Shown here: piece after piece, positions 21,516 through 53,542 of the stretch | How positions within the stretch are numbered: the stretch's first letter is position 1 | How the letters are laid out: each line of letters starts with the position of its first letter | Origin: a virus | Strand: one strand, 5' to 3' | Virus record (IMG/VR): IMGVR_UViG_3300010354_000121 | Span: 1 to 53,542 of that record | Length of the DNA stretch: 53,542 nucleotides | The notes under the pieces: model-generated | Databases searched by the model: none | What the model saw: the letters and a program-made list of their open reading frames with translations, nothing else | What the model was told of the DNA's origin: nothing | Program-made: the position numbers and the translations under genes

Positions 21516-21535
21516 TATTTAAATAGTTATTATGT

Positions 21536-21542
21536 CTAAATA
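21536..21542 (+). promoter_or_regulatory. Late promoter (CTAAATA) for a candidate small RNA
   Basis: CTAAATAATA lies 8 nt before the left arm of a long inverted repeat and ~40 nt before a terminator, with no ORF between them. It is placed the same way as the motif at 51064. Confidence 0.5.
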
Positions 21543-21549
21543 ATAATAA

Positions 21550-21613
21550 GTCTGTTCAGATGGCACTCTCTACAGACAGAAAAGGCGCTTCTTTATGAGG
21601 CGCCTTTTCTTTT
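21550..21613 (+). ncRNA. Candidate small RNA, copy 1 (before gp17)
   Basis: A transcript started from the late promoter at 21536 and ended at the terminator at 21580-21613 would be about 64 nt and holds no ORF. It has the left stem arm TCTGTTCAGATGGCA, the core CTCTACAGACA shared with copy 2 at 51095, and a 12-bp terminator hairpin. GTCTGT near its 5' end can also pair with ACAGAC in the core. The arm is complementary, with one G-U, to TGCCATCTGAATAGA in the leader of gp17. Inference from sequence layout only. Confidence 0.45.
21580..21613 (+). terminator. Rho-independent terminator before gp17
   Basis: Stem AAAAGGCGCTTC (21580-21591) pairs with GAGGCGCCTTTT (21597-21608), 12 bp with one G-U, loop of 5 nt, followed by CTTTT. 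It ends transcription from the gp16 side. Confidence 0.85.
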
Positions 21614-21629
21614 ATGGAGAATTATTAAT

Positions 21630-21636
21630 CTAAATA
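21630..21636 (+). promoter_or_regulatory. Late promoter (CTAAATA) for gp17
   Basis: CTAAATAATAATGCC; nearly the same 15-mer (CTAAATAATATTGCC) precedes the HNH gene at 51157. The start site would fall in or next to the right arm of the inverted repeat, so the gp17 leader carries most of that arm. Confidence 0.6.
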
Positions 21637-21673
21637 ATAATGCCATCTGAATAGAATAGTAAAAGTAATTATT

Positions 21674-23764
21674 ATGTCTGATACAAATCATTACATGGGA
21701 AATCCGTTATTGAAACGGGCAAATATTCCCAGTGAATTTACACAAGAGCAATTAGTAGAATTAGCAAAATGTGCGGCTGATCCCGTGTATTTTGCTAAAA
21801 ATTATATTAAAATTGTTAACATCGATGATGGCCTTGTATCATTTGATATGTGGCCTTTTCAAGAAAAGATGCTTACTACTTTTCATGAAAATAGATTTAG
21901 TATTTGTAAACTTCCCCGTCAGCCGCTAGAAGATAATACCCCAATCCCGACTCCTAGTGGTTATAAAAAAATTAAAGATCTAAAAATAAATGACATTGTT
22001 TATGATTTATATGGAAAGAAAACAAAAGTCATAAACAAAGTAAGTTATAAAAATACCGAAAAATGTTATAAACTTTCTTTTAAAGGAAAAATATTTGAAG
22101 AAAAAATTTTTTGTGATAAGGATCACTTCTGGAGAGTATATTTTGACAATACTTGCCAAGTATTGACTACAGAGCAAATTTATAATTTAAAAAAAGAAAT
22201 TTTCTTAAAAAGACAATCGTTTAATACATTAGTTGATAATTGGGGCGAAGTAATAAAATTAGTATCAATAGAAGAAATTGAGCCCGTAAATGTTTCGTGT
22301 GTTGAAATAGAAAATAAGGACCATTCTTTTTTATGTGGTAAGAATTTTATACCCACGATGAACTGCGGAAAAAGCACCACGGCGGTATCATTCCTTCTAC
22401 ACTACGCAATTTTCAATGATAATGTCTCTATTGCTATTCTTGCAAACAAGGCATCAACAGCAAAAGATCTACTAGGAAGACTACAAGTATCTTTTGAAAA
22501 CCTTCCTAACTGGATGCAACAAGGTATTAAATCATGGAATAAAACGTCATTAGAACTTGAAAATGGATCAAAAATTATAACCGCATCAACTTCAGCATCT
22601 TCTGTTCGGGGGGGTTCTTATAATGTTATCTTCTTGGACGAATTTGCGTTCGTACCAAATAATGTGGCATTGAATTTTATGAATTCGGTTTATCCCACTA
22701 TTTCTTCTGGTAAAGACTCAAAAGTTATAGTTGTATCAACCCCAAATTCGCTTAATCATTTCTATAAAATGTGGGATGATGCTATAAAAAAAGAAAATGA
22801 TTATGTTCCACTAGAAATTAACTGGAATGACGTTCCTGGAAGAGACGAAGAATGGAGAAAGAAAACTATTGCAAACCTAGGCTCTGAGAAAGCCTTCGAC
22901 CAGGAATTCAACTGTTCTTTCCTCGGATCATCAGACACTTTAATTTCTGGAGCAAAACTCCAAACAATGGTACATAATAAACCAATAAAATCTAAAAAAT
23001 TTCTTGATACTTATGAAGAGCCAATAGAAGAACATCAATACATGATAACCGTTGACGTTGCAAGAGGCGTTGATCTTGACTATTCGGCATTTACTGTTAT
23101 TGACATAACCAAAATGCCTTATAAAATGGTAGCAAAATACCGGGACAACACAATCAAACCGATTATGTTCCCCTATATTGTCAAAGATGTTGGGCTCCAT
23201 TATAATAAGGCCTTTGTTTTATGTGAGACAAATGACGTTGGAGATCAGGTTGCCAATGCCCTTCATTATGACCTCCAATACCCCAATCTACTTACCTGTT
23301 TTATTAAAGGAAGACAGGGGCAAGTTTTAGGTCAGGGTTTTGGTGGAAATCGAGTTGAGTATGGCGTTAAGATGTCTAAAAACGTCAAAAAACTAGGCTC
23401 GATCAACCTAAAAATGTTAATCGAAGAAGATAAACTATTAATCAATGATTACGACACGATTAATGAATTATCGACATTTATTCAAAAATCTAATTCTTTT
23501 ATGGCCGAGGAAGGCAAAAATGATGACCTTGTTGCTTGTTTGATCCTATTTGCCTGGGCCTCAACAAACGAGTACTTCAAAGAAATCACCGATGATGATA
23601 TTAGAAAAAGACTATTCCAAGAAAAACAGGCCAATGAAGAGAACGATATGCTCCCAATTGGGTTCTTAGAAAACGGTCTACAAGAAGAAACATTTGTAGA
23701 AGAAGATAAACTTTGGCATGTTGTTTCTAATGAAGAACTAGCCACCCTTTGGAATTTCTATTAA
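21674..23764 (+). CDS. 17: Large terminase subunit gp17 with an in-frame intein
   Basis: The protein is 696 residues; without the intein (residues 84-230) it is 549, the usual size for cyanophage gp17. It is the ATP-driven packaging motor and headful nuclease. The P-loop reads LPRQ (80-83), then intein, then CGKST (231-235). Walker B is VIFLDEF with D322/E323. The nuclease domain begins with TVDVARG (D461) and is followed by a LCETNDVGDQ motif. The intein must be spliced out for ATPase activity because it splits the P-loop. Only a weak ribosome site precedes the ATG. The leader holds one arm of a long inverted repeat. Confidence 0.95.
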   Translation: MSDTNHYMGNPLLKRANIPSEFTQEQLVELAKCAADPVYFAKNYIKIVNIDDGLVSFDMWPFQEKMLTTFHENRFSICKLPRQPLEDNTPIPTPSGYKKIKDLKINDIVYDLYGKKTKVINKVSYKNTEKCYKLSFKGKIFEEKIFCDKDHFWRVYFDNTCQVLTTEQIYNLKKEIFLKRQSFNTLVDNWGEVIKLVSIEEIEPVNVSCVEIENKDHSFLCGKNFIPTMNCGKSTTAVSFLLHYAIFNDNVSIAILANKASTAKDLLGRLQVSFENLPNWMQQGIKSWNKTSLELENGSKIITASTSASSVRGGSYNVIFLDEFAFVPNNVALNFMNSVYPTISSGKDSKVIVVSTPNSLNHFYKMWDDAIKKENDYVPLEINWNDVPGRDEEWRKKTIANLGSEKAFDQEFNCSFLGSSDTLISGAKLQTMVHNKPIKSKKFLDTYEEPIEEHQYMITVDVARGVDLDYSAFTVIDITKMPYKMVAKYRDNTIKPIMFPYIVKDVGLHYNKAFVLCETNDVGDQVANALHYDLQYPNLLTCFIKGRQGQVLGQGFGGNRVEYGVKMSKNVKKLGSINLKMLIEEDKLLINDYDTINELSTFIQKSNSFMAEEGKNDDLVACLILFAWASTNEYFKEITDDDIRKRLFQEKQANEENDMLPIGFLENGLQEETFVEEDKLWHVVSNEELATLWNFY
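21923..22363 (+). mobile_element. Class 3-like mini-intein (147 aa) in the gp17 P-loop
   Basis: The insert runs from P84 (LEDNTPIPTPSGYKKI follows, an intein block A) to N230 before C231. Block B is FCDKDHFW with His68 and Trp70 of the intein. Block F is VSCVEIENKDHSFLCG with Cys126. Block G is NFIPTMN with Thr145 and terminal Asn147. The first residue is Pro, not Cys or Ser, and the Trp/Cys/Thr positions match the WCT triplet that defines class 3 inteins, in which the block F Cys starts splicing. The penultimate residue is Met, not His. The +1 residue is Cys. At 147 residues it has no room for a homing endonuclease. Confidence 0.88.
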
Positions 23765-48304: not shown

Positions 48305-48607
48305 ATGGAATCAAATCATTTTTGGAAATTTAATGAGGGGGAAATCCTTAAAGAAGTAGAGAGTTATCTTATTTCTACCTATAAGGGCCATTACACATCA
48401 GACGAAAGTAAGGTCCAGACAATTGATCTTATCGAATCAATTGGCGATGCCGAACCTTTTTGTAGGAGCAATGCAATTAAATATCTCTCTCGCTTCCGTA
48501 AAAAGGAGCAATCAACCCCAAAGGCAGATCTACTGAAAGCAATTCATTATTGTATTCTTCTTTATCATTTTTCTGGCTCTGATGCCAAGAACAATTACAC
48601 TCTTTGA
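48305..48607 (+). CDS. DUF3310-like protein
   Basis: The 100-residue protein ends in RSNAIKYLSRFRKKEQSTPK then ADLLKAIHYCILLYHFSG, the core of DUF3310, a common phage family sometimes annotated as nucleotide kinase-like without proof. It is the first gene of the clamp/clamp-loader unit, right behind an early promoter. No ribosome site is seen in the U-rich leader. Confidence 0.8.
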   Translation: MESNHFWKFNEGEILKEVESYLISTYKGHYTSDESKVQTIDLIESIGDAEPFCRSNAIKYLSRFRKKEQSTPKADLLKAIHYCILLYHFSGSDAKNNYTL

Positions 48608-48612
48608 ACATT

Positions 48613-49287
48613 ATGGAACTATCTGCCGAAACACTCGCAATCCTAAAAAACTTTTCTAACATCAACCAATCAATCCTGGTTAGTCCTGGAAATTCTCTCA
48701 GGACCATAAAGGTATCCAGGAACGTCCTGGCCGAGGCTACTATTTCAGAAAAGTTTGAGTCTGGATTTGCCATTTATAATCTCAATCAATTCCTTAACAG
48801 CATCAATCTTTTAGGAAATCCTGATCTTGATTTCTCTAACGAAAAGTACATGGTCCTAAAAGAAGGCAAGCGTAAGATCAAGTATTTTTACGCTGATGCC
48901 TCGGTTATTGTGTCGCCCCCTGATAAAAAGATGAGTCTTCCATCTCAGGACGTTTGTTTTGTATTGGACCAGACTTCTCTTGATAAAATTATCAAGGCCA
49001 AACAAATCTTTTGTCTGGACGATCTTTCTGTTGTTGGTGATGGTGAAAAAATTGAGCTAATTGTTCAGGACAAAAAGAACGATACCTCAAACGAGTATTC
49101 AATTGAAGTTGGAACCACAACCGAAAAGTTCTGCATGAACTTTAAGATTGAAAATCTCCAGTTCTTCCCTGGCAGTTATGAGGTTGTTCTGTCTAAAAAG
49201 AACATTGCCAAATTTTCCCATCAAAAAATGTCCCTGGTTTATTGGGTCGCAATGGAACCTGATTCAAAATTTGAAAACAATGAATGA
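48613..49287 (+). CDS. 45: Sliding clamp gp45
   Basis: The start is the ATG at 48613 (MELSAETLAILKNFSNINQS), giving 224 residues, the usual gp45 length; a TTG 9 nt earlier is less likely. KERKIKYFYAD-like and FCMNFKIENLQFFPGSYEV segments and the C-terminal LVYWVAMEPDSKF are typical. The trimeric clamp tethers gp43 to DNA and activates late transcription with gp33/gp55. No good ribosome site is seen; the preceding stop is 5 nt away. The end overlaps gp44 by 8 nt. Confidence 0.93.
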   Translation: MELSAETLAILKNFSNINQSILVSPGNSLRTIKVSRNVLAEATISEKFESGFAIYNLNQFLNSINLLGNPDLDFSNEKYMVLKEGKRKIKYFYADASVIVSPPDKKMSLPSQDVCFVLDQTSLDKIIKAKQIFCLDDLSVVGDGEKIELIVQDKKNDTSNEYSIEVGTTTEKFCMNFKIENLQFFPGSYEVVLSKKNIAKFSHQKMSLVYWVAMEPDSKFENNE

Positions 49288-50212
49288 TTTTCTTTTTGTA
49301 GAAAAATACGCATCTAAAAATGTATCTGAATGTATCCTCCCAAAGGACATAAAAAAGGTCTTCCTTGAAATTGAAGAATCAGGAAATGTCCCGAACATGA
49401 TTCTCTCTGGCCCTCCTGGGGTTGGGAAAACAAATCTGGTCAAGGCCCTGGCCAAGAGTCTGGATCGGGACTTTATGAAAATAAATGGATCTGATGAGAG
49501 GTCCATTGATGTTATTCGCAATAAGGTGAAGGAATATGCCTCGACAGTATCTCTTTCTTCTACCGGAAAGAAAATCCTTCTTATTGACGAGGGAGATAAT
49601 TTAACAAACGATGCCCAACTGGCCCTAAGAGCGGCCATTGAGGAATTACAACATAACTGTTCTTTTATCTTTACTTGTAATTATAAAAACCGAATTGACC
49701 CGGCCCTTCATTCAAGATGTCCGGTGATTGATTTTACAATTCCTTCTAAGGAAAGGCCCTTACTTGCAAAGCAGTTTAACGATCGAATCATTTACATCCT
49801 AGAACAAGAAAGAATTCAATGTGAAGACGATAAGATCATTACTAAACTCTTGATCAAGTACTTCCCTGATTTCAGGAGAATTTTAAACGTCCTGCAAAAG
49901 TATTCTAATTCGGGAGTAATTGATTCTTCTATCCTGGCCCAGGCTGCCGACATAAAAATTTCGGCCCTTTATGATCATTTAAAGCAAAAGAACTTTACAG
50001 AGGTCAGAAAGTGGGTTATTAATAATCTGGACAACGACCCGAATGTAATCCTAAGAAAGTTTTATGATGGCCTAGAACAGGTCATGGTAAAGCATTCTAT
50101 TCCTCAGGCCATTTTGATTATTCATGATCACATGAGCAAGAACGTTGTCGATAATGAGGTTAATTTAATTGCATGTTTTATTAAAATTATGGTTGAATGT
50201 GAATGGAATTAA
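49280..50212 (+). CDS. 44: Clamp loader large subunit gp44
   Basis: The start is the ATG at 49280 (MNDFLFVEKYASKNVSECIL), which gives 310 residues; the reading frame is open further upstream inside gp45 but that part does not resemble gp44. It is an AAA+ ATPase with Walker A GPPGVGKT near residue 46, Walker B LLIDEGD, and sensor/SRC motif LHSRCPVIDF. Four gp44 and one gp62 load gp45 onto primer junctions. It overlaps gp45 by 8 nt and gp62 by 10 nt. Confidence 0.96.
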   Translation: MNDFLFVEKYASKNVSECILPKDIKKVFLEIEESGNVPNMILSGPPGVGKTNLVKALAKSLDRDFMKINGSDERSIDVIRNKVKEYASTVSLSSTGKKILLIDEGDNLTNDAQLALRAAIEELQHNCSFIFTCNYKNRIDPALHSRCPVIDFTIPSKERPLLAKQFNDRIIYILEQERIQCEDDKIITKLLIKYFPDFRRILNVLQKYSNSGVIDSSILAQAADIKISALYDHLKQKNFTEVRKWVINNLDNDPNVILRKFYDGLEQVMVKHSIPQAILIIHDHMSKNVVDNEVNLIACFIKIMVECEWN

Positions 50213-50577
50213 AGGACTGGCTGGATTCAATTTATTTTTCTAAGAAAGACGTTTTGAAGGATATTGATAATCCAAATCAATATCCTGCTTTTGTTATTAA
50301 TAGAATTCTTTCTGGTAATATTGATACTGTTCTTTTTGCAAGTGAACTGAATGAAAGATTCACCATGGACAAAGACATGCAGTACAAGTTTCTTCTTTAT
50401 GGGGTTCCAAAGAGAAAAAGATTTTCTAATTATTTAAAGAAGAACACCTTAGATAATCTTGATATTGTTAAGCGGTATTATGGGTATAATAATGAAAAGG
50501 CAATTGAGGTATTGAAATTATTATCTAAAGAACAGATTGATTACATTAAAGAAAAGTTGAACTTTGGTGGAGTATAA
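50203..50577 (+). CDS. 62: Clamp loader small subunit gp62
   Basis: This 124-residue protein (MELKDWLDSIYFSKKDVLKD; YPAFVINRILSGNIDTVLFA; MQYKFLLYGVPKRKRFSNYL; VKRYYGYNNEKAIEVLKLLS) is the short cyanophage form of gp62 that completes the gp44/62 loader. The start lies inside the end of gp44. Its stop is embedded in a TATAAATA late promoter. Confidence 0.92.
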   Translation: MELKDWLDSIYFSKKDVLKDIDNPNQYPAFVINRILSGNIDTVLFASELNERFTMDKDMQYKFLLYGVPKRKRFSNYLKKNTLDNLDIVKRYYGYNNEKAIEVLKLLSKEQIDYIKEKLNFGGV

Positions 50578-50580
50578 ATA
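50573..50580 (+). promoter_or_regulatory. Late promoter (exact TATAAATA) for regA
   Basis: AGTATAAATAATAC includes the gp62 TAA stop; regA starts 29 nt later with a GAGGAA ribosome site. Confidence 0.65.
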
Positions 50581-50609
50581 ATACATAATTCATTATCTTT
50601 GAGGAATTT

Positions 50610-51071
50610 ATGGCTAATTATGAATTGAATGGCCAATACATTAAATGGTCCCCGGATCTTATGGTAGAAGTAGAGCTGGAAACCCCAGACTCTTTTCTTC
50701 TTGCAAAAGAGACATTAACCCGCATGGGTGTTGCATCCAAATATAAAAAGGAATTATACCAAACTGCCCACGTACTTTATCGCGGAAATAAATACTATTT
50801 GGTGCATTTTAAATTTATGTTTGTTCTTGATAATCGTAGTGCAACAATTACGGTTAATGATCTAGAGAGGCTTCATGCTATTGCTCACTTACTCGATCAG
50901 TGGGGAATTGTAAAAGTCAAAAATCCGGCCCAAATAGAGGATCGGGCTCCACTAAACCAAATCAAGATTCTTCCGTTCAAAGAGAAACAATCTTGGAATC
51001 TTGTAGAAAAATATAGTATAGGGAATACAAAGAAAAAGAACGACACTACTGATTCTTTGATAACTAAATAA
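50610..51071 (+). CDS. regA: Translational repressor RegA
   Basis: The 153-residue product (YIKWSPDLMVEVELETPDSF; LTRMGVASKYKKELYQTAHV; YLVHFKFMFVLDNRSATITV; LERLHAIAHLLDQWGIV) is RegA, which binds start regions of early phage messages and blocks ribosomes. Ends in a Lys/Thr-rich tail. It lies after the clamp-loader genes, as in T4. A candidate small RNA and a terminator follow directly. Confidence 0.93.
   Translation: MANYELNGQYIKWSPDLMVEVELETPDSFLLAKETLTRMGVASKYKKELYQTAHVLYRGNKYYLVHFKFMFVLDNRSATITVNDLERLHAIAHLLDQWGIVKVKNPAQIEDRAPLNQIKILPFKEKQSWNLVEKYSIGNTKKKNDTTDSLITK
51064..51070 (+). promoter_or_regulatory. Late promoter (CTAAATA) for candidate small RNA copy 2
   Basis: TAACTAAATAACTACG overlaps the regA stop (51069-51071) and precedes the left stem arm at 51077, as the motif at 21536 does in copy 1. 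Confidence 0.5.
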
Positions 51072-51075
51072 CTAC

Positions 51076-51139
51076 GTCTTTAGGTACGGCAATACTCTAC
51101 AGACAAAGATTAGGTGGCCTTTGGGTCACCTTTTCTTTT
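51076..51139 (+). ncRNA. Candidate small RNA, copy 2 (before the HNH gene)
   Basis: A transcript from the late promoter at 51064 to the terminator would be about 64 nt, the same as copy 1, and has no ORF. It contains the left arm TCTTTAGGTACGGCAATA, the shared core CTCTACAGACA (51095-51105) and a terminator. The arm is complementary (18 bp, one G-U) to the leader of the HNH gene up to 6 nt before its ATG, so pairing would cover the ribosome site. Inference from layout. Confidence 0.45.
51112..51139 (+). terminator. Rho-independent terminator after regA
   Basis: AGGTGGCC (51112-51119) pairs with GGTCACCT (51124-51131), 8 bp with one G-U, loop TTTG, followed by TTTCTTTT. The sequence after the stem (CCTTTTCTTTTAT) equals that of copy 1. 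Confidence 0.85.
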
Positions 51140-51156
51140 ATAAAATATTATTTTAA

Positions 51157-51163
51157 CTAAATA
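51157..51163 (+). promoter_or_regulatory. Late promoter (CTAAATA) for the HNH endonuclease gene
   Basis: CTAAATAATATTGCC, almost identical to the 15-mer in front of gp17 at 21630. The right stem arm follows directly, so the message leader starts with it. Confidence 0.55.
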
Positions 51164-51188
51164 ATATTGCCGTACTTAAAGAATAAAG

Positions 51189-52115
51189 ATGTGTAGACTA
51201 AACGAACGCACCCATAAGCATCATATCATTCCAAGATACATGGGTGGAAGCAATGAGCCAAAAAATCTTGTTAAAGTAACAGTAACTCAACATGCCATGT
51301 TCCACTTCTGTAATTACCAATTATGGGGTAATGAAGAAGATAGAATAGCATGGAGAGCTTTATCTGGTCAGATAACCATGGATGAGATCAAATTAGAAGC
51401 CCAGTCTTTAAATGGCAAAAGAAATAGCCAAAAACAGAAAGAGAATGGAACTGGAATTTTTGGACTAACATTAGAGCAAAGAATTGAAGCTGGCAAAAAA
51501 GGAGGACAAATACATAAAGAAAATGGAACTGGAATTTGTGGACTAACTTATGAACAGAGAAGGGAAATAGGTAAAAGAACAAACCAAAAATGTAAAAAAA
51601 ATGGTACCGCATTTTATGGTATGAGTCCAGAAAAAAGATCGGAAAATGGTAAAAAGGGGGCCGAAGTAAATAGACAAAATGGAACTGGGATTTTCGGACT
51701 GACGCCAGAACAAAAAATAGAACGTAGTAGAAAGTCGGGTCAAAAAACATATGAAGACGGTATTGGAATTCACGGAATGGATCTAGAAGAAAGAGTTGAA
51801 GTCTGCAAAAAAGGAGGAAAAAAAGGCGGAAAAATAGTCTCTTCCCAAAAATGGCAATGCACAGTAACTGGACATGTTTCTAATGCAGGAGGACTTTCTA
51901 GATTTCAAAAAGCTAAGGGGATCGACACATCGAATAGAATAAAAATAGATGGACCTAGAAGTTGGGAAATTACTTTTGAAGATGGTAGAGTTGTTGTTAC
52001 TAATTGTTTATCTACTTGGGCCAAAGAAAACGGCTATAAGTATGTTAATATCCATAGTGTACGGATAGGAAACTCTTCAAATTACCAGGGAATCGTAAAA
52101 GTAGTTCCATTCTAA
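51189..52115 (+). CDS. HNH homing endonuclease with repeated DNA-binding motifs
   Basis: The 308-residue protein has an N-terminal HNH core (HKHHIIPRYMGGSNEPKNLV, then VTVTQHAMFHFCNYQLWG). From residue ~82 to ~205 a unit of about 29-31 residues is repeated about five times (NGTGIFGLTLEQRIEAGKKG type). A KWQCTVTGHVSNAGGLSRFQ segment and a C-terminal part (FEDGRVVVTNCLSTWAKENG) follow, the latter like the end of the GIY-YIG protein. A free-standing homing endonuclease is the best guess. It separates regA from hsp20, which are usually near neighbours in cyanophages, so it is probably an insertion. Confidence 0.85.
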   Translation: MCRLNERTHKHHIIPRYMGGSNEPKNLVKVTVTQHAMFHFCNYQLWGNEEDRIAWRALSGQITMDEIKLEAQSLNGKRNSQKQKENGTGIFGLTLEQRIEAGKKGGQIHKENGTGICGLTYEQRREIGKRTNQKCKKNGTAFYGMSPEKRSENGKKGAEVNRQNGTGIFGLTPEQKIERSRKSGQKTYEDGIGIHGMDLEERVEVCKKGGKKGGKIVSSQKWQCTVTGHVSNAGGLSRFQKAKGIDTSNRIKIDGPRSWEITFEDGRVVVTNCLSTWAKENGYKYVNIHSVRIGNSSNYQGIVKVVPF

Positions 52116-52166
52116 TTATCGAATAAATAGCCACCGAGGAAGTTCGGTCATCCACACCATAATCAC

Positions 52167-52196
52167 TTGACTTTTCAGGGAATCCATGATTAAATA
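52167..52196 (+). promoter_or_regulatory. Probable early promoter for hsp20
   Basis: TTGACT (52167-52172) with TTAAAT at 17 nt or TAAATA at 18 nt spacing; the box also resembles a late motif (TTAAATA). CACTTGACTTTTCAGGGAAT around the -35 is nearly repeated at 43111. Confidence 0.4.
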
Positions 52197-52198
52197 AT

Positions 52199-52254
52199 AC
52201 TGAGGAAATTGCCTAAGGGGATTTCTTCAGTAAACCTCTCGCTTTTAAAGGAGA
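52199..52254 (+). promoter_or_regulatory. ROSE-like RNA thermometer candidate in the hsp20 leader
   Basis: Two hairpins: an 11-bp stem (52199-52209 with 52221-52231) and, next to the gene, TCTC-G-CTT (52237-52244) pairing with AAGGAGA (52248-52254) over 7 bp with a bulged G and loop TTA. The second hairpin hides the whole ribosome site. It contains TCGCT, which fits the UYGCU motif of ROSE thermometers of small heat-shock genes. Confidence 0.55.
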
Positions 52255-52261
52255 CATTAAA

Positions 52262-52687
52262 ATGACACTAGCAAAATACAACTCAACTTCACTGTCTAAA
52301 TTTCTTGATGACTTAGACAGGTCTAGCATCGGGCTTTATGACTGGCTCGATAGGGTAACATATCTGGACACCCAGTCCAATTACCCCCCATATAATCTAA
52401 TAAAAGAAAGTGACACAAGATTTAAACTAGAACTGGCGGTTGCTGGTTTTAAACGTTCGGAACTTTCTGTGTACACTGAGAATAATCAACTCATTATCCA
52501 ATCAAATCGGGCCGATAAAGAGGAATATAAATACGTTCATCGCTTTCTTTCCCAGAGAAACTTTAAGAGAGTTTGGCCCATTTCTGATGACATTAGAGTT
52601 GATAATGTAGATCTTGTTGATGGTATTTTAACCGTTCATCTTGATCGGATTGTTCCAGATCATCAGAAGAAGAAAGTTTATTTCTAA
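52262..52687 (+). CDS. hsp20: Small heat-shock protein Hsp20
   Basis: The 141-residue protein has an alpha-crystallin domain: YNLIKESDTRFKLELAVAGF (residues ~43-62), ELSVYTENNQLIIQSNR, YVHRFLSQRNFKRVWPI and VDLVDGILTVHLDRIVPDHQ. Hsp20 is a usual cyanophage gene next to gp43 and probably protects phage proteins during infection. The ribosome site AAAGGAG is 8 nt before the ATG and is sequestered in a hairpin. A nested promoter/terminator follows. Confidence 0.93.
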   Translation: MTLAKYNSTSLSKFLDDLDRSSIGLYDWLDRVTYLDTQSNYPPYNLIKESDTRFKLELAVAGFKRSELSVYTENNQLIIQSNRADKEEYKYVHRFLSQRNFKRVWPISDDIRVDNVDLVDGILTVHLDRIVPDHQKKKVYF

Positions 52688-52734
52688 TAAATACTTCTGG
52701 CTACCACCCAAGTAAAGTTGGCGCAACCACCCCC

Positions 52735-52764
52735 TTGACAAATCCCAAGGGGACGTGCTAAAAT
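52735..52764 (+). promoter_or_regulatory. Early promoter for the 83-aa gene and gp43
   Basis: CCCCTTGACA, 18-nt spacer with CCCAA and ACGTGC, TAAAAT (52759-52764). CCCCTTG/CAAGGGG (52732-52752) forms an inverted repeat over the -35 box. Sister of the promoter at 48225. Confidence 0.85.
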
Positions 52765-52765
52765 A

Positions 52766-52792
52766 AGAGGGTCGTTCAAAGACCCTCTTTTT
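52766..52792 (+). terminator. Terminator overlapping the gp43 early start site
   Basis: AGAGGGTC (52766-52773) pairs with GACCCTCT (52781-52788), 8 bp, loop of 7, then TTTT. It begins 2 nt after the -10 box, so the start site lies in the left arm, as at 48255. The next ATG is 2 nt after the U-tract. Confidence 0.8.
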
Positions 52793-52793
52793 C

Positions 52794-53045
52794 ATGGAAA
52801 TTAAAATTATACTGTTCCCAAATAATCTCATTCTTATCGCCCAGATCGAAGAAGTCGTTCCTGAAGAGATTGGAGATCCCACATGTAAGATTATAGAACC
52901 TTTTGTAATAGACAAAGACTTTTTAACTCCTTGGCTACTCGATATAACGACCCAAAATTCGTTTATGATGCACCCGGATAAATTCCTAACCATTGCCGAA
53001 CCAAATGTTAATCTGCTTGCAAAATATAAAGAGCTAATTAAGTAG
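52794..53045 (+). CDS. 83-aa hypothetical protein upstream of DNA polymerase
   Basis: The product (MEIKIILFPNNLILIAQIEE; TCKIIEPFVIDKDFLTPWLL; NSFMMHPDKFLTIAEPNVNL) matches a short conserved ORF before gp43 in cyanophages, function unknown. A small beta-barrel, perhaps Sm-like, is suggested by its pattern, shared loosely with the protein at 43257. No ribosome site lies between the terminator U-tract and the ATG. It abuts gp43 without a gap. Confidence 0.75.
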   Translation: MEIKIILFPNNLILIAQIEEVVPEEIGDPTCKIIEPFVIDKDFLTPWLLDITTQNSFMMHPDKFLTIAEPNVNLLAKYKELIK

Positions 53046-53542
53046 ATGTTTTATACCTCTGTCAAACAAATCGGAAATAGTGTTTATGAAAGGGGTTATG
53101 ACGACTCGGGTGTTCCTTTTCATAGAAAATTAGACTACAGACCCACTTTCTACATTACATCAAATAAACCCTCAGAATGGAAAACCCTAGACAATAAAAA
53201 CGTTTCCCCAATAAATCCAGGATCTATTAAAGAATGCAGGGAATGGCTGACCCAATACAAGGATGTTGATAACATCTCGATTTATGGACATGAGACGGCC
53301 ATTTATCAGTATCTGGCAGAATATTATCCAGACGAGATTGAAGATTTTAATATCAATAAAATCAGGCTTTATACACTTGATATTGAAACCGCCGCCGAAC
53401 TTGGAGGATTCCCTGAACCAGATATTGCCCAAGAAGAAATTCTTCTGATTACTATTCAAGATTATTCTACCAAAAAAATCTATACCTGGGGAAGTCGGCC
53501 TTTTTCTGAGGTAATGGATAATTATGTTTATCAAGAATGTGC
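53046..53542 (+). CDS. 43: DNA polymerase gp43, N-terminal part (3' end outside the window)
   Basis: ATG at 53046 directly follows the TAG of the previous gene; the frame stays open to the window edge (165 codons). MFYTSVKQIGNSVYERGYDD, YRPTFYITSNKP, NISIYGHETAIYQYLAEYYP (split over motif) and the Exo I motif LYTLDIETAAE (near residue 115) identify a family B phage polymerase. Replicates the phage genome with gp45/44/62. Confidence 0.93.
   Translation, partial: MFYTSVKQIGNSVYERGYDDSGVPFHRKLDYRPTFYITSNKPSEWKTLDNKNVSPINPGSIKECREWLTQYKDVDNISIYGHETAIYQYLAEYYPDEIEDFNINKIRLYTLDIETAAELGGFPEPDIAQEEILLITIQDYSTKKIYTWGSRPFSEVMDNYVYQEC

Follow-up and report, generated by a model that had tools for sequence, protein, structure and literature searches.

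T4-type late promoters carry an 8-bp box at -13 to -6, about one turn before the start (PMC2988020), and NATAAATA is the reported late motif of the cyanophage S-PM2 (PMC2984593). In T4 I-TevI and its relatives, a late promoter lies within a hairpin that hides the ribosome-binding site (RBS), an arrangement that frees only late messages (PMC2988022). The leader family described here, which we recognised in a window of 53,542 nucleotides comprising the whole viral record IMGVR_UViG_3300010354_000121, resembles the hairpins of I-TevI, I-TevII, I-TevIII, segB and Aeh1 mobE in that a GIY-YIG or HNH endonuclease gene is immediately preceded by two complementary arms that flank a late promoter and, judged from the predicted start, the late message bears the 3' arm only (PMC2988022). 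It differs from them in that another late promoter (P1) precedes the 5' arm and the loop contains a terminator, so that a separate small RNA with its own hairpin (hairpin 1) is predicted, and in its ~20-nt leader, near-fixed spacing and highly diverse arms. S-PM2 provides another cyanophage example of a regulatory RNA linked to a homing-endonuclease gene, in that CfrI (Millard et al, 2010), as summarised in PMC2984593, is a ~225-nt opposite-strand antisense RNA spanning psbA and the endonuclease gene; compared with that summary, the RNA predicted here is ~60 nt long, lies upstream on the same strand and would act via a short arm.

The T4-type definition of a single-promoter, terminator-free hairpin does not describe the new family, in which P1 is extra in 155 of 160 loci and hairpin 1 and the terminator covary, nor, on inspection by eye, do the arms pair directly with a recognisable Shine-Dalgarno sequence. 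A late promoter between complementary arms before a homing-endonuclease ORF is present, the downstream ORFs matching homing-endonuclease PHROGs. Type I toxin-antitoxin systems use a small untranslated RNA whose loop base-pairs near the 5' end of the mRNA from a gene that may be harmful. The predicted RNA would likewise set a small RNA loop against a message 5' region, whereas its partners are nucleases, RNA and message lie in tandem on the same strand, and a short separate repeat takes the place of an overlapping antisense gene. The PeSLs of RB49 and phi1 (from the work of Arbiol et al. 2010) are reportedly mobile units of an early promoter and a stem-loop for module shuffling; our leaders are similarly promoter and stem-loop units repeated between genes of T4-type phages but, unlike PeSLs, have late promoters, are tied to nuclease genes and carry covarying arms. 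The leader would work as a combination of the T4 hairpin device with an antisense-type control such as is used on mobile elements. Rfam yielded no family above the gathering threshold in the window or in four family loci, the best sub-threshold matches to the gp17 copy being unrelated. In the open full-text literature, judged mostly by title and abstract, the T4 hairpins and CfrI were found and no account of the present leader.

The original prediction had placed a composite of late box, arm, core, terminator, second late box and complementary arm at 21536-21655, before gp17. Every one of these parts was found at its place (Table 1) and no ORF spans them, as had been stated; a second copy in the window, hairpin 1 and the link to homing endonucleases had been overlooked. 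With transcription starts predicted at the sixth base after each box, the first message base at gp17 is G21642. The small RNA has a predicted fold of -33.6 kcal/mol, in which the core pairs with the 5' end to form hairpin 1 (GTCTGT/ACAGAC) and the hairpin loop exposes the antisense arm. A lone 15-nt inverted repeat proves little by itself, and CTAAATA is not enriched in the window (14 observed versus 17.7 expected). Chance is ruled out by recurrence, namely by the second copy, the two covariance-model matches in the window and the family-wide covariation.

The second copy, located at 51064-51188 by a core search and a whole-window comparison, has the same part order and the same core, and its arms (CTTTAGGTACGGCAAT and ATTGCCGTACTTAAAG) are unlike those of the gp17 copy, yet still complementary. 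A covariance model run on the window returned exactly two matches, of 77 and 74 bits, corresponding to the gp17 copy and the second copy. The ORF behind the second copy has its best family match in phrog_655 (homing endonuclease, E 7.6e-12) and a weak match to PF01844. This cassette lies between the gene of a RegA-like translation repressor and the Hsp20 and DNA polymerase genes (48604-53540), downstream of the sliding clamp and clamp-loader genes, and its P1 box overlaps the regA stop codon.

Table 1. Positions in the window of the predicted parts of both leader copies and of the adjoining genes.
Feature	Position	Strand	Basis or remark
gp17 copy: left copy of imperfect 17-nt direct repeat (AAATAGTTATTATGTCT), ancestral gp17 start ATGTCT inside; insertion point	21521..21537	+	
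gp17 copy: P1, T4-type late promoter box CTAAATA	21536..21542	+	predicted; box in 155/160 homologous leaders, NATAAATA or CTAAATA
gp17 copy: predicted small RNA, ~64 nt	21548..21614 (5' end 21548-21550)	+	late-box spacing, intrinsic terminator end
gp17 copy: hairpin 1 of predicted small RNA, GTCTGT ... ACAGAC	21550..21577	+	covariation, fold
gp17 copy: left (antisense) arm TCTGTTCAGATGGCA	21551..21565	+	inverted repeat, covariation
gp17 copy: core CTCTACAGACA	21568-21578	+	seen in sequence
gp17 copy: intrinsic terminator, 14-nt stems 21578-21591 / 21597-21610, then T-rich run	21578..21614	+	
gp17 copy: P2, late promoter box CTAAATA for downstream message	21630..21636	+	predicted; TATAAATA in 147/155 family leaders
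gp17 copy: right (target) arm	21641..21655	+	complementary to left arm, 14/15
Scar of lost endonuclease gene and regenerated gp17 start (right repeat copy 21663-21679)	21656..21679	+	alignment with L083/L084, L092
gp17, terminase large subunit, intein-like insert	21674..23764	+	PF03237, PF17289; insert by comparison with L093 gp17
Second copy: P1	51064..51070	+	overlaps end of regA-like ORF
Second copy: predicted small RNA (hairpin 1 GTCT...AGAC, terminator)	51076..51142	+	
Second copy: P2	51157..51163	+	
Second copy: right arm, pairs with GTCTTTAGGTACGGCAAT (51076-51093)	51166..51182	+	duplex -26.8 kcal/mol
Free-standing HNH homing-endonuclease gene	51189..52115	+	20 nt past predicted message start

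To keep the leader itself from steering the selection, endonuclease genes were gathered by protein alone and their upstream regions were then inspected. Two TAAATA boxes at the expected spacing precede 155 of the 160 loci, a number that contains duplicates (145 distinct leaders in the full set). Of these 155 leaders, 147 have TATAAATA as the second box; the distance from P2 to the ORF start is 25 nt in 106 and 23-30 nt in all of them, and the predicted NATAAATA and TATAAATA promoter boxes keep a fixed spacing to the arm start. The leader is seen at the sequence level to combine two late boxes with a terminator between them, a 5' hairpin, ~14 nt of complementarity, a near-fixed distance to the ORF and a link to mobile nucleases. 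Searching with a covariance model (R1), as the original prediction had suggested, gave 57 matches in 15 records (13 contigs and two cultured cyanophages), with up to nine per contig; S-SRM01 holds six of them and B23 three. All 56 fetched matches sit 22-30 nt before an ORF, nearly all of which are nucleases: GIY-YIG and NUMOD3 proteins, HNH, NUMOD4-HNH, endonuclease VII-like HNH and, once, TnpB, while the ORF at one locus (L407) had no family match. Endonuclease activity of these ORFs is assumed from family matches, several of them weak. Pattern scans of IMG/VR gave about 30 copies besides the two in the window, nearly all preceding endonuclease-like ORFs, and the cultured coastal phage MA01 carries one more (74098-74210). 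About a third of the first viral pattern matches were real, the remainder being chance matches that share only the pattern; a scan with a stricter family pattern gave no matches, one pattern scan of bacterial genomes found nothing, and four additional matches of the gp17 right arm were rejected as chance. The model search showed no credible copy in S-PM2, S-RSM4, P-SSM2, S-CRM01, Syn9 or T4. Weak model matches in T4, Syn9, S-PM2, S-RSM4, S-CRM01 and an Acinetobacter phage were discarded; those inspected proved to be terminators, either simple ones or ones close to a late-promoter box in front of an ordinary gene.

Nucleases of at least three types share one 14-nt arm, GCCGTCCAAATAGA, in their leaders, and many different arms are found with each of the common types, indicating that leader and ORF have recombined. 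Diversification of the arms to avoid cross-pairing within a genome was tested and found no support (strong cross-pairs, 3.7% within versus 2.2% between genomes; not significant by permutation). In contig G010 a leader (L404, 34455-34568) stands 25 nt before a TnpB gene (PF01385, PF07282), a member of an RNA-guided nuclease family, which suggests that TnpB in cyanophages can borrow a homing-endonuclease leader.

Simpler arrangements occur as well. Long simple hairpins with a TAAATA box in the loop follow the homologue of the gp17-preceding gene in S-SRM01 (at 126.12 kb; L002, 4084-4140), where the hairpin stands before an endonuclease VII-like gene, and in MA01 (at 48.45 kb; L003, 4084-4150), where it stands before a tail-fibre gene; this phage group thus also has the classic form with a single promoter. 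An HNH endonuclease locus (L295) lacks P1 and any evident terminator, has the P2 box only, enclosed in a short GC-rich hairpin, and is possibly a transitional form. A terminator with a TATAAATA late box immediately behind it, but no long covarying arms, is found between ordinary genes in the Acinetobacter phage Henu6 (L062, 1508-1577), T4 (87132-87207) and S-PM2 (108031-108110), and such pairs are possibly the ancestral half of the leader.

Covariation was analysed in an alignment of one leader per arm type (75 arm types). In the arm helix 90.6% of the cells are paired, both sides have changed in 14 of 15 pairs, and 247 cells are double-changed as against 77 +/- 8 after shuffling; sliding the arm partner as a control lowers pairing to 32-42%. 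Hairpin 1 is paired in 85.5% of the cells with changes on both sides in 6/6 pairs (75 sequences) and the terminator helix in 96% across the family, and the two together are 91% paired with 90 double-changed cells (30 +/- 4 when shuffled). No shuffle reached the covariation score of the arm helix or of hairpin 1. Shuffling does not take out relatedness, but the slid controls retain it, and with so many arm types shared descent is an improbable cause of the covariation. Columns 16-20 are used by both hairpin 1 and the arm helix, which are therefore mutually exclusive. Only 7 and 6 leaders are unpaired within hairpin 1 at columns 15 and 16, whereas 35 of 75 have column 16 unpaired with the arm, which argues that hairpin 1 is selected separately. 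The proposed layout of two RNAs, with a ~64-nt product of P1 and the terminator, a P2 message bearing the complementary arm and a read-through transcript folding in cis, recurs family-wide with compensatory changes in both helices. The pairing of the arms, whose loss in related phages had been named beforehand as speaking against the proposal, is retained there, again with compensatory changes.

Frequent G-U pairs point to a pairing read as RNA rather than DNA, and predicted duplex energies are narrowly distributed at -23.9 +/- 2.2 kcal/mol for cognate arms, as against -11.3 +/- 4.2 kcal/mol for non-cognate ones (75 arm types). Along the message, complementarity is 0.91-1.00 at +1 to +10, 0.67 at +14 and 0.08 at +15, and 0.17 at -2 (75 leaders), so that its two limits lie close to the predicted 5' ends of the two RNAs; positions -1 (0.89) and -3 (0.73) also pair, and the boundary at +1 is not perfectly sharp. 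In the usual leader (G..AATAGAATAGAA-ATG) the arm helix stops 6 nt before the AUG, and no AGGAGG-like Shine-Dalgarno sequence was seen by eye between the two.

In our reading, T4-like cyanophages carry mobile homing-endonuclease cassettes, and the element before gp17 is the stranded leader of one of them. We consider it probable, if by no means settled, that the P1 small RNA of such leaders silences in trans. Late in infection, P1 would yield an RNA of ~60 nt ended by the terminator, whose 5' hairpin would offer the antisense arm in its loop; this arm would pair with the P2 message over nucleotides +1 to +14 of its 20-nt leader, and the duplex would keep ribosomes off the endonuclease start. 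Upstream transcripts that pass the terminator would fold both arms in cis. With the P2 message in a trans duplex and read-through folded in cis, there would be no freely translated source, and endonuclease synthesis would be restricted to late times and kept low. A point against this reading is that P1 and P2 belong to one and the same late class, so that the antisense and its target would be produced together. We infer transcription from P1 and P2, accumulation of the small RNA, pairing in trans and the translation block from the arrangement of these parts. Attenuation was rejected on geometric grounds: transcription passes the terminator first and reaches the right arm only afterwards, and arm pairing therefore cannot decide termination of its own transcript.

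Nearly identical covariation is expected from pairing in trans and in cis. The predicted folds agree with silencing in trans: the small RNA forms hairpin 1 and the terminator, pairing of the two RNAs gains -12.7 and -15.4 kcal/mol, and read-through transcripts fold in cis. These cis folds are strong (-56.6 and -46.7 kcal/mol), which is a point for control in cis only. As in T4 I-TevI, segB and Aeh1 mobE, the arms would then act only in read-through RNA by hiding the ribosome-binding region, P2 in the loop would give a free late message, and the P1 RNA would be a by-product. The conserved and covarying P1, P1 spacing, terminator and hairpin 1 are left unexplained by this account, and a terminator in the loop would itself cut the read-through that the hairpin should silence, although the mechanism as such is known (late promoter within an RBS-hiding hairpin; PMC2988022), the cis device is contained in the composite leader, and the one-promoter hairpins of S-SRM01, MA01 and L295 are of this kind. 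In L167, a single case, P1 has been lost and the arms match poorly. We regard control in cis only, the main rival, as a possible but rather unlikely explanation.

A transcription insulator, with P1, terminator and P2 halting upstream transcription and restarting it for the inserted gene while the arms and hairpin 1 merely affect the form of transcripts or the stability of the message, would not require a promoter ahead of the terminator, or 75 arm types that covary and pair with almost constant strength; this is very improbable, even if a terminator followed by a late promoter box without long arms is found in the T4-like phages T4, S-PM2 and Henu6. Very improbable, too, is a small RNA that pairs with the message yet stabilises it, for example by protecting its 5' end: the pairing data would be identical and the duplex spans the extreme 5' end, but it mostly ends about 6 nt before the AUG in a 20-nt leader, where it is expected to hinder 30S binding, and T4 endonucleases are usually held down (PMC2988022). 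A function at the DNA level, the arms being a palindrome, a cruciform or an endonuclease-bound operator, has a precedent in I-TevI, which represses its own late promoter (PMC2988022), but deserves hardly any credence given arms that vary in at least 75 ways yet stay complementary, one arm sequence before different nuclease families, and frequent G-U pairs.

Silencing in trans by the P1 RNA is part of a wider proposal to which we give an even chance: that these leaders form a large, unlisted dual-late-promoter family in which a same-strand small RNA with fast-diversifying recognition loops silences the adjacent mobile nuclease in trans, the module moving among unrelated nuclease types (GIY-YIG, HNH, endonuclease VII-like and TnpB) and, in one lineage, having been left behind as an antisense-controlled promoter of the essential packaging-motor gene gp17. 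If true, free-standing cyanophage homing endonucleases travel with a dedicated antisense-RNA brake, and it becomes possible to test in cultured phages how viruses put up with the selfish nucleases they carry, a long-standing question (six copies in S-SRM01, three in B23, one in MA01). The paired loops, at least 75 of them, would be a natural set for RNA-RNA recognition, and the covariance model flags nuclease cassettes.

The history of the gp17 site can be read from three states in related phages. L092 represents the empty site, reading ...AAATAGTTATTATGTCTGAAAATC, with the preceding gene followed by TTTAAATAGTTATTATGTCT straight into gp17. In L093 the same point is filled by the complete cassette, in which a leader with its own arms and a GIY-YIG-like ORF (281 residues, matching PHROG 314, homing endonuclease) are followed by a regenerated gp17 start. 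The leader is present but the endonuclease missing in the window, in L083 and in L084/L085, and in the window the imperfect 17-nt repeat flanks the leader (copies at 21521-21537 and 21663-21679, 15/17 identical). Together the empty, full and leader-only states identify the gp17 element as a cassette remnant, and we are highly confident of its anatomy, its leader family and this origin. An origin as a dedicated gp17 regulator was rejected because the family stands before endonucleases. The suggestion that the element couples packaging-motor synthesis to a small RNA thus needs to be revised: it was not made for the motor, its normal partner being a homing-endonuclease gene, while control of gp17 is possible, if unproven.

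In comparisons of the window with L083 or L084, 0/30 arm positions and 0/7 P2 positions have changed, as against 8-9/95 in the rest of the element, and 15-17 of 80 third positions differ in the first 80 gp17 codons. P1 remains CTAAATA despite a 3-nt length change after it, and the core changes leave G-U pairs in hairpin 1. The unchanged arms in three phages provide modest evidence that arm pairing may still be selected at gp17, and antisense control of gp17 by the retained leader is plausible; the leftover parts would give a promoter and may dampen gp17. Any such effect is probably weaker than in usual copies: the gp17 AUG lies 32 nt past the predicted message start, compared with the usual 20, this shift by the scar meaning that the duplex would end about 18 nt, not about 6, before the AUG. 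The gp17 copy suggests that a selfish leader can persist before an essential phage gene.

In gp17 itself the ATPase motif is interrupted between PRQ and CGKST by an intein-like insert, whose first residue is a proline (PLEDNTP) and not cysteine or serine. The insert is common to L083-L086, whereas B23 has a different, larger one just after CGK.
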